Shown here piece after piece: positions 26,662-44,834 of a stretch of DNA of 64,000 nucleotides (positions are counted from its first letter, which is position 1; the number at the start of each line of letters is the position of its first letter). The translations under genes were made by a program, and so were the position numbers. The stretch covers positions 124,001-188,000 of the forward strand of contig WRHJ01000001.1 of NCBI GenBank assembly GCA_009783305.1, read 5' to 3'. Origin of the DNA: Candidatus Saccharimonadota bacterium (GTDB taxonomy: Bacteria > Patescibacteriota > Saccharimonadia > Saccharimonadales > Saccharimonadaceae). A model generated the notes under the pieces. The model had not been told where the DNA came from. It ran no database searches and saw only the letters and a list, made by a program, of their open reading frames with translations.

Positions 26662-26746
26662 TGGTGCGCGAGACTGGACTTGAACCAGCACGCCCGAAGG
26701 CATATGCTCCTAAGGCATACGTGTATACCAATTTCACCACTCGCGC
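26662..26746 (-). tRNA. tRNA-Leu (anticodon UAG), CCA encoded
   Basis: Minus strand GCGCGAGTGGTGAAATTGGTATACACGTATGCCTTAGGAGCATATGCCTTCGGGCGTGCTGGTTCAAGTCCAGTCTCGCGCACCA; class II variable arm, TTCAAGTCC T-loop. Confidence 0.95.
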
Positions 26747-35690: not shown

Positions 35691-38096
35691 ATGAGTAGAT
35701 ATGAACCGCTGAAAATTGAGGCGAAGTGGCAAGAGCGCTGGGAAACTGAGCAGTCATTTGTGGCTGTTGAGAAAGCTGGCGTGCCAAAAATGTATATTGC
35801 CGAGATGTTTCCTTATCCTTCAGGAGCAGGATTGCACGTGGGACATGTGCGTAACTTTTCGATTGTGGATTGTTTGGCGCGGTTTTATCGACAAAATGGG
35901 TTAAATGTGCTGAGGCCATTTGGATACGATACTTTTGGTTTACCGGCGGAAAATTATGCGATTAAGACTGGGGTCTCGCCGCAGGAAGCAACGGAAACGA
36001 ACATTGCAAGTTTTCGTAAACAGCTGAAGCGGTTGGGGTACGCAATTGATTGGTCGCGGGAGTTTTCGACCTCTGATCCGGAATATTATCGATGGACGCA
36101 GTGGTGTTTTTTGCAGTTGTATAAGAAGGGATTGGCGTATCAGGCAGAAAATTATCAGTGGTGGTGCCCGGTAGATCAGACAGTTTTGGCCAATGAACAG
36201 GTAGAAGGCGGGCGATGTTGGCGATGCGGTTCTGAGGTTGAAAAGAAAAAGATGAAGCAGTGGTTCTTCAAAATTACGGAATATGCGGATGAATTGTTAG
36301 ATGAAATAGATGCGTTGGACTGGCCAGAGAAGATTAAGACCATGCAGAAAAACTGGATTGGCCGGAGCGAGGGTGCGGAGATTGATTTTGCGGTGGACGG
36401 ATCGAAAGAAAAGATCAAAGTGTTCACGACGCGGCCAGACACATTGTTCGGGGCAACTTTCTTGGTGTTAGCGCCGGAGCATCCGGCGGTAGAGGGGTTA
36501 GCAAATGATGATACGAAGCAGAAAGTCGACCAATATCGCACGGAGGCGATGAAGAAAAGCGACATTGAACGCCAGGAAAATAAAGAGAAGACTGGTGTGT
36601 TTACGGGTGCACATGCGATCAATCCGGCGACAGGTGAGAAAATGCAAATTTGGGTGGCGGATTACGTACTGATGGGCTACGGTACTGGGGCGATTATGGC
36701 GGTGCCGGCACATGACGGCAGGGATTTTGAATTTGCGACTAAGTTTGAACTGCCGATTCGAAAGGTAGTGGAGAAGCCAGAAACACTGGTAGATGATGAG
36801 ATATGTTATACGGGCGAGGGCGAATTGGTGAATTCGGGCAATTTTGATGGCGAACAGTCGTCTGAAGCGCGCGAGCAAATTGTGGCCTGGTTGGAACAAC
36901 AAGAAGTGGGCAAGAAAAAAGTGATTTATCGGATGCGAGATTGGTTAATTTCACGGCAACGTTATTGGGGTGCACCGATTCCGATTGCTTATGATAAGGA
37001 CGGTAAGGCGCATGCTGTTCCAGAAGATCAATTGCCAGTGATATTGCCAAAGATTGATGATTATACGCCGGATAACTCTGGCCGCTCAGCGCTAGCGAAA
37101 CATCCGGAGTGGATGGAAGTGGAGATAGATGGTAAGAAGATGACGCGTGAAACTGATACGATGGATGGCTACGCTTGTTCGTCGTGGTATTTATGGAGAT
37201 ATTGCGATGCGCACAATAACAAGAAAGCGTGGAGTCCTGAGAAAGTAAATTATTGGGCGCCGACGGATGTTTATGTGGGTGGCGACCATGCTGTGGCACA
37301 TTTGTTGTATGTACGTTTTTGGTGCAAGTTTTTCGCGGATCAGGGTTTGTTGGATTTTCGCGAGCCGGTGAAGAAATTACTTTATAACGGCTATATCAAC
37401 GCCCCGGATGGCAAAAAGATGAGTAAGAGCAAGGGTAATGTAATTGACCCGCTGGATATCATTGATCAAGGTTATGGCGCTGATACGCTGCGGACTTATG
37501 AGCTGTTTATTGGGCCATATGATCTGGATGCGGCTTGGGACACGAAGGCAATTGGGGGAGTCTATCGATTCCTGAATCGTTGCTATAATTTGACCTTTGG
37601 CGAGGGCGAAAACTCAAAAGGTGAAGCGCAGGTCAAAGCTCCGCTAACAGAGGTGGCGCGACACCGAACGATTAAGAAAGTGACGGAGGATCTGCACCGC
37701 AATAGTTTCAATACGGCAGTGGCGGCTTTGATGGAATTTGTAAATGAATTATATAAAAATCCTCATACGAGCGAAGATTTGACGGTGTTGGCACGGTTGC
37801 TGAAACCATTTGCGCCGCATTTGGCGAGCGAAATGTTGGAGAAACTGGGAGCAGATGATGTCTGGCCAGAGTGGGATGAGAAATATTTGGTGAGCGATAC
37901 GGTAGAAATTGTGGTGCAGGTGAACGGAAAGTTGCGAGCACGCGTGATGGTAGCGAAAGAAGCGGCAGATGATGCAGCGCAATTGGAAGAAGCGGTACGA
38001 GCGGATGAGAAAGTTAAAGCACAACTAGAGGTTAAGCAAGTTATAAAAGTGATTGCCCTGCCCAAAAAACGATTGGTGAGTTTCGTAATCAAATAA
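35691..38096 (+). CDS. leuS: leucyl-tRNA synthetase
   Basis: MFPYPSGAGLHVGHVRNF, WCFLQLYKKGLAY, DGKKMSKSKGNVIDPL. Confidence 0.97.
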   Translation: MSRYEPLKIEAKWQERWETEQSFVAVEKAGVPKMYIAEMFPYPSGAGLHVGHVRNFSIVDCLARFYRQNGLNVLRPFGYDTFGLPAENYAIKTGVSPQEATETNIASFRKQLKRLGYAIDWSREFSTSDPEYYRWTQWCFLQLYKKGLAYQAENYQWWCPVDQTVLANEQVEGGRCWRCGSEVEKKKMKQWFFKITEYADELLDEIDALDWPEKIKTMQKNWIGRSEGAEIDFAVDGSKEKIKVFTTRPDTLFGATFLVLAPEHPAVEGLANDDTKQKVDQYRTEAMKKSDIERQENKEKTGVFTGAHAINPATGEKMQIWVADYVLMGYGTGAIMAVPAHDGRDFEFATKFELPIRKVVEKPETLVDDEICYTGEGELVNSGNFDGEQSSEAREQIVAWLEQQEVGKKKVIYRMRDWLISRQRYWGAPIPIAYDKDGKAHAVPEDQLPVILPKIDDYTPDNSGRSALAKHPEWMEVEIDGKKMTRETDTMDGYACSSWYLWRYCDAHNNKKAWSPEKVNYWAPTDVYVGGDHAVAHLLYVRFWCKFFADQGLLDFREPVKKLLYNGYINAPDGKKMSKSKGNVIDPLDIIDQGYGADTLRTYELFIGPYDLDAAWDTKAIGGVYRFLNRCYNLTFGEGENSKGEAQVKAPLTEVARHRTIKKVTEDLHRNSFNTAVAALMEFVNELYKNPHTSEDLTVLARLLKPFAPHLASEMLEKLGADDVWPEWDEKYLVSDTVEIVVQVNGKLRARVMVAKEAADDAAQLEEAVRADEKVKAQLEVKQVIKVIALPKKRLVSFVIK

Positions 38097-38103
38097 AATG
38101 AAA

Positions 38104-38127
38104 GACCCCGCTGTAAACAGCGGGGTC
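38104..38127 (-). terminator. intrinsic terminator oriented for a minus-strand transcript
   Basis: GACCCCGCTGTTTACAGCGGGGTC then TTTCATTTTATT on the minus strand; no T-run on the plus side. Confidence 0.65.
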
Positions 38128-38698
38128 AGTCGAATTGTCTTATTTACTTGTCAAGGAGCATCGGGCCGACGAAATAGCGGCCCAGGTGGTTGCGGCGAAG
38201 GCCCCGCGTCCCTTTTAAGTGAGAACCATATCGGTCTTCTTGCCTTTGTCAAACTATCCACGAATCATGCGGGATATACCCGACGGGCGCCCAATAGCGC
38301 TGCTTTTCTGGAGTTTTGATAGAAGGCTTTTCTATGGGAAGACGGATGGCAAAACCGGACTAGTTTTGCTGGCGGGACGCGGGGCGAGTAGTATCGCCGG
38401 GACCGTTTGACCTAAAGACCGTAGAGTCTTCGGCTACCCAAAGCGGGTGCCCCGGCGCGAAAACCGTTGTATTTACGGACATTCCGGGTTCTAAGCTGCG
38501 ACCAGTCCTTGAAAAGCTAATTGCCGATGGCGCAAAAACTATAGCAATGGCTGACTGCAATGCTCGCCTCCTCCTTTCCGAGAAGTAAATAAGATTGGAA
38601 ATGTACCGACGATTGCGGCGCCCGTTTTTGGGAGTACAACCGTCCAGTTCGTACTGAGGTTGTGACATCCGTCTTCGGGAGCGCAACTGCTCGGTACA
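38104..38698 (-). ncRNA. candidate unidentified large structured ncRNA (~600 nt)
   Basis: Promoter at 38704-38732 (TTGACA-N17-TATGCT), terminator at 38104-38127, closing stems ATGTACCGA/TCGGTACAT (38601-38609/38691-38699) and TCTTATTTACTT/AAGTAAATAAGA (38138-38149/38583-38594), many internal hairpins, no conserved ORF. Confidence 0.55.
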
Positions 38699-38703
38699 TC
38701 CGT

Positions 38704-38732
38704 AGCATAATTCATAGAAATAGCCGTGTCAA
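38704..38732 (-). promoter_or_regulatory. sigma70-like promoter for the candidate ncRNA
   Basis: TTGACA-N17-TATGCT on the minus strand. Confidence 0.65.
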
Positions 38733-38832: not shown

Positions 38833-39024
38833 ATGCCTGAACCAAAAAAGCAGAGTAGTCCGCGCAAGACTGGCCTTCGCCGTAGTCATTTGCGTCTTAA
38901 ACTCGCTCGCACAGTTAATAAAAAGTCGCCGGTCAAAGCATTTGAAACCGCGAAAAAGACGCCAAATCTAAAACTAAAGGGGTGTAAGGCCTGCAAAGGC
39001 AAGCCTTGCAAGTGTAAGGAGTAG
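38833..39024 (+). CDS. rpmF: divergent 50S ribosomal protein L32
   Basis: MPEPKKQSSPRKTGLRRSHLRLK...CKACKGKPCKCKE; SD AAAGGAG. Confidence 0.65.
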   Translation: MPEPKKQSSPRKTGLRRSHLRLKLARTVNKKSPVKAFETAKKTPNLKLKGCKACKGKPCKCKE

Positions 39025-44554: not shown

Positions 44555-44596
44555 AGCGTGTGCTCCTGCTCGGGATTACGAGTCGCGCTTGACTCG

Positions 44597-44666
44597 GATT
44601 TGGAGCGTATCGGACTTTTACCGTTGCGGCACAGTGCACGATTTTCACGCGCTTCCGCTCCAAATC
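44597..44666. repeat. inverted repeat in the divergent rpoB upstream region
   Basis: GATTTGGAGCG (44597-44607) / CGCTCCAAATC (44656-44666). Confidence 0.7.
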
Positions 44667-44834
44667 ATTTTGATTTAGTTTGAGTATTGCATAATTTTTA
44701 GAAAGCGTGTAGACTTGATTCCAAGAAGTAGTGTGCCGTGCCAAAAAAATCTGATCTGGCGCATCAGATGGGGCAGCCGGCTGTAATCTTCCGGCCAAAG
44801 ATATAAAACACTAATAATACAAGCGAGGAAATTC

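Follow-up and report, generated by a model that had tools for sequence, protein, structure and literature searches.

The gap between leuS and rpmF probably holds a lineage-specific, independently transcribed and pseudoknotted structural RNA of ~595 nt. The RNA region is known from one sequence, a 64,000-nt stretch of DNA (the window) that lies on contig 1 of the genome (0.79 Mb, 98% complete) of a tiny, parasitic-type member of the Saccharibacteria, and the single-sequence evidence that it would be a real large structured RNA gene is strong. All sequence elements named in the original prediction, which had proposed a structured non-coding RNA on the minus strand, were found by sequence scans. 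A large unannotated structured RNA is still the best-supported reading, although no relative was found anywhere. The two strongest items, a 12-bp helix in the core and an 11-bp pseudoknot between the two domains, had been missed in that prediction.

Setting and transcription signals

The leuS stop lies at 38096 and the rpmF start at 38833, leaving a gap of 736 nt (originally given as 735 nt). Downstream of rpmF are nusB, a NUDIX-like gene and rnc; the names of all neighbouring genes were recognised from translations, with no family search behind them. The neighbours of the RNA region are core genes (leuS, rpmF-nusB), so placed in neither a prophage nor a tRNA island, and the sole tRNA of the window (26662-26746) is 11 kb away. 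Among named genomes, those nearest to the window genome are Candidatus Saccharibacteria MAGs, of which many come from animal guts. The closest relative (L070) is labelled Candidatus Nomurabacteria (isolate Po218_bin33); its leuS places it among the Saccharibacteria, and the record is probably mislabelled. The features of the region, in the direction of putative transcription, are as follows.

38704..38732, minus strand: promoter, -35 TTGACA, 17-nt spacer, -10 TATGCT (consensus scan, 10/12 matches)
38597..38703, minus strand: 5' domain, a rod of ~105 nt with its outer helix at 38699-38691/38609-38601
38666..38676, minus strand: predicted 5' strand of pseudoknot PK1, GAAGACGGATG, in an internal loop of the 5' domain
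38617..38625, minus strand: first strand of PK2, ACGGGCGCC, a 9-bp perfect complement to 38283-38291
38138..38594, minus strand: core domain, 457 nt, closed by TCTTATTTACTT/AAGTAAATAAGA and AAGGAG/CTCCTT
38395..38457, minus strand: core hairpin arm, CGCCGGGGC/GUCCCGGCG, a 9-bp stem with two sub-hairpins
38201..38385, minus strand: inner core arm, closed by the 12-bp GCCCCGCGTCCC/GGGACGCGGGGC
38338..38348, minus strand: predicted 3' strand of PK1, CATCCGTCTTC, in the core
38283..38291, minus strand: PK2 partner, GGCGCCCGT
38104..38127, minus strand: intrinsic terminator, a GC-rich 10-bp stem GACCCCGCTG-TTTA-CAGCGGGGTC with a TTTA loop, followed by the T-run TTTCATTTTATTT

The predicted TTGACA-N17-TATGCT promoter was present at 38732-38704 on the minus strand. 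The pattern TTGACA-17-TATNNT occurs 21 times in 1.58 Mb (both strands), corresponding to 0.02 expected per gap. Judged from promoter spacing, transcription may start close to G38697, at the base of the first helix. The GC-rich terminator was likewise confirmed at 38127-38104 (minus strand), with its T-run in the correct direction and found on the minus strand only; comparable terminators are expected 0.03 times per gap and strand. Promoter and terminator lie at opposite ends of the RNA region and point in the same direction. A free-standing bacterial ncRNA gene has a promoter and a terminator of its own, and both were found here, by consensus matches only. These signals alone suggest minus-strand transcription of the gap, and the direction assigned to the RNA depends on them because the excess folding energy was near equal on both strands. 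The region would be read away from rpmF and towards leuS, in convergent orientation, and it ends in a terminator of its own, so it is probably not a leader or attenuator of a neighbour.

Helices and predicted pseudoknots

We compared the region with dinucleotide shuffles and with the rest of the genome. Six perfect Watson-Crick stems of at least 9 bp were found in the region, against a mean of 0.53 (maximum 3) in shuffles, and three of at least 11 bp, against 0.03 (maximum 1). Three long-range stems of at least 11 bp occurred in this region only, among 7,839 tiles of 600 nt (~800 kb, covering nearly the whole genome with some sequence counted twice); the genome average for long-range stems of at least 9 bp was 0.34 per tile. 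Minimum energies of the whole region, the rod and the core were 4-7 standard deviations below those of shuffles. Fold z was -7.2 on the minus strand and -5.9 on the plus strand, and choosing the strand by folding energy was rejected on account of these similar values.

The helix predicted to close the 5' domain, ATGTACCGA/TCGGTACAT, was located at 38699-38691/38609-38601. Inside it the rod continues with stems at 38687-38682/38617-38612, 38679-38676/38624-38621 and 38663-38658/38641-38636, and pairing probabilities along the rod are 0.9-1.0. The 5' domain gave a fold z of -4.8 over 107 nt, with none of 160 shuffles as stable. The helix that had been proposed to close a ~440-nt domain was found at 38594-38583/38149-38138 as a perfect 12-bp pairing with arms 433 nt apart (probability 0.97), and its AAGGAG/CTCCTT extension at 38576-38571/38158-38153. 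Fold z of the core domain was -4.1. Within the core, the perfect, GC-rich 12-bp helix closing the inner arm (38385-38374/38212-38201) has 161 nt between its arms, an energy of -29 kcal/mol and a pairing probability of 1.0, while the stem of the hairpin arm reaches -18.7 kcal/mol and a probability of 0.58. The short perfect hairpins listed in the original prediction are real, but each is weak evidence by itself.

Two pairings would connect the rod with the core. The PK1 strands (38676-38666 and 38348-38338) form an 11-bp perfect complement from rod to core. It takes 9.5 kcal/mol to free both strands, whereas the helix gains ~18, and PK1 is therefore plausible alongside both domain-closing helices. 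For PK2, freeing the strands costs about 22 kcal/mol, so that its coexistence with the 5' rod in one state is unlikely. It may instead form in another state of the RNA or between two RNA molecules; for this contact, which contains the palindromic GGCGCC, an intermolecular kiss fits better than a monomer fold.

Homologues, known families and history of the locus

No Rfam family matched the RNA region at gathering score in the Infernal search (cmscan) that the original prediction had proposed; that prediction had found no match to tmRNA, RNase P, SRP RNA or 6S by their hallmark motifs. A relaxed scan of 4227 Rfam families (E up to 5) returned four weak matches around the terminator end, far below their cut-offs. 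These scans rule out every Rfam family at detectable similarity, tmRNA and RNase P included. Like the candidate, tmRNA and RNase P RNA are large structured RNAs, with housekeeping roles and one gene each per genome, and genuine copies of both lie elsewhere in the genome, outside the RNA region (C3:49299-49661 and C3:46178-46513, respectively). Two other RNA elements were noted. An AdoCbl-II (cobalamin) riboswitch lies at 44596-44667 of the window (minus strand, 48 bits), unusual in so reduced a genome. At L196:15900-16250, in an intergenic gap of ~500 nt, a ~150-nt rod is formed by a 19-bp inverted repeat with another inverted repeat inside it, possibly a 6S-like RNA.

Codon use in the region was non-coding in all six frames, with scores within the wrong-frame range. 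None of its ORFs gave a Pfam match or a convincing PHROG match, and tblastn against phages, viral contigs and related genomes found no protein relatives of them.

Similar sequence was absent from the 698-kb genome of the closest relative (blastn, nhmmer and covariance models). DNA searches of 61 relatives and of 392 genomes from the order found no second copy, and those of phages and plasmids found no relatives; in its own genome the region matches only itself beyond short chance hits, with no further copies. Exact patterns in viral contigs gave nothing beyond chance, nor did covariance models in the genus and 246 family genomes or covariance model R2 alone in 314 phylum genomes; with a single sequence behind them, these models can detect no more than fairly close relatives. 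As no relative was found anywhere, covariation and conservation could not be shown. Three candidates were rejected: recurrent short blastn matches to RNA positions 145-190, which were as numerous as expected by chance (392 genomes, E 0.05); a gap beside leuS in a goat MAG (L122), free of long ORFs, with z -1.8 and an unlike architecture; and an exact 19-mer match in IMG/VR (L174), a chance hit inside coding phage-like DNA.

We collected the homologous leuS-rpmF gaps, as had been proposed, and found no relative of the RNA in them. In most congeners the gap is filled by a minus-strand sortase-like gene (e.g. L083:5154-5975), whose protein (GTNINYP...TLSTCY) appears class B-like by inspection; in congener L051 the sortase-like protein at the same site has a different C-terminal half. 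Neither the window genome nor its closest relative (leuS 78% and rpmF 92% identical) has the gene, and in the latter the gap is 103 bp long and holds little besides the rpmF promoter. The content of the locus is not conserved, relatives having the sortase-like gene or nothing. Since both genomes are without the gene and the gap of the closest relative is empty, loss of the gene probably preceded the appearance of the RNA region, whether this evolved in place or came from elsewhere. No residual sortase similarity was detected in the region when a congener's protein was searched against the window genome (tblastn, E up to 10).

Palindromic repeats were also seen. A family of ~100 nt has at least seven copies in the window genome (L177:6704-6810, L186:17409-17512, L196:2204-2296, L198:15414-15520, L197:14114-14208, L197:18029-18137 and L211:17204-17290). 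The L177 copy is inside an open reading frame, like Rickettsia palindromic elements, and a related sequence is found within an ORF in L252 of the closest relative. The latter genome also has a strongly folding dispersed repeat (L244:6100-6640, G012:C7; z -6.1) with many copies, several of them at contig ends, which is absent from the window genome. The palindromic families of both genomes were rejected, being unrelated to the RNA region.

Competing explanations and a possible role

Absence at the closest relative's site, the lack of a homologue and the equal folding of both strands weigh against a structural RNA, and the first and last of these also fit the main rival, in which an inverted-repeat DNA insertion, mobile or without function (MITE-like or a degenerate palindromic element), would account for the helices as repeats of the DNA and not as an RNA fold under selection. 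A 12-bp inverted repeat bounds the 457-bp block with TTG on both sides (plus strand), formally a 3-bp target duplication, and the window genome, like its closest relative, is rich in palindromic repeats. The TTG flanks fit weakly; a 3-bp duplication has a 1 in 64 chance. MITEs are multi-copy, whereas its own genome has this region only once. Outside the block lie the rod, the promoter, the terminator and the PK1 partner, PK1 joins its inside to its outside, and there are several independent long-range helices rather than one terminal repeat. We regard an insertion as unlikely. We give still less credence to a degraded protein gene, be it a sortase remnant or something else, or to a small gene that escaped recognition in a structured mRNA. 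Relatives do have a minus-strand sortase-like gene at the site, the best ORF candidate (66 codons, minus strand, from TTG 38560) follows a good ribosome-binding-site-like motif, AAAGGAGGAGG, and a plus frame has one coding-like 40-codon stretch (0.22 bits per codon), another ORF candidate being the 74-codon plus-strand frame at 38364-38585. But sortase similarity was found nowhere in the region, no ORF has a family or homolog, codon scores do not leave the wrong-frame range, and long-range perfect helices would be unexpected of a pseudogene.

It is highly improbable that a known class of large RNA (ROOL, GOLLD, OLE, group I or II intron, 6S and others) includes the region as a highly divergent member. 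Its size, its pseudoknotting and its division into a 5' domain and a core are reminiscent of ROOL and GOLLD (PMC12286853), but Rfam offered only the weak terminator-end matches and the context is that of neither a prophage nor a tRNA island. ROOL RNA, 659 nt long for env-120 (PMC12286853), resembles the candidate in size, in being a free-standing ncRNA with multiple long-range helices and pseudoknots, and in having no associated protein gene; it is encoded by phages and prophages, frequently with a tRNA island nearby, whereas the candidate lies between core genes. It shares no sequence or covariance match with the candidate. GOLLD is likewise large, ornate and pseudoknotted with a two-region organisation, many members exceeding 800 nt and having a conserved 3' region, and OLE is a large structured bacterial RNA with no obvious catalytic role (PMC12286853); the candidate matches the covariance model of neither. 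A further mark of these large ornate RNAs is homo-oligomeric assembly from RNA alone. On the tests made, the candidate does not belong to ROOL, GOLLD or OLE.

For the favoured reading, a structural RNA gene, we infer transcription, exact fold, function and an origin by gain or evolution after loss of the sortase-like gene. A minus-strand unit would run from the promoter at 38732-38704, with a start near 38697, to the intrinsic terminator at 38127-38104, and its product would be a stable non-coding RNA of about 595 nt. This would fold into the 105-nt rod and the 457-nt core closed by its 12-bp helix, the two being docked via the 11-bp PK1. By analogy with ROOL, GOLLD and OLE a structural or scaffold function is most likely, and the RNA might act alone or with protein, like large bacterial RNAs whose shape is their function. 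More tentatively, and with the odds somewhat against it, the region may represent a class of large, free-standing and pseudoknotted RNAs that is new, having emerged or been gained in a single lineage of ultra-small Saccharibacteria where a sortase gene once stood, and that perhaps assembles into RNA-only multimeric particles.

Bacteria have few large structured RNAs, and several of the known ones have proved to be unusual machines or cages. If our reading is true, an RNA of this kind can arise within one lineage, and searches based on conservation miss it. A reduced genome of ~0.8 Mb would then carry a large RNA at the site of its relatives' surface-protein gene, and would offer a compact system for asking what large structured RNAs do.
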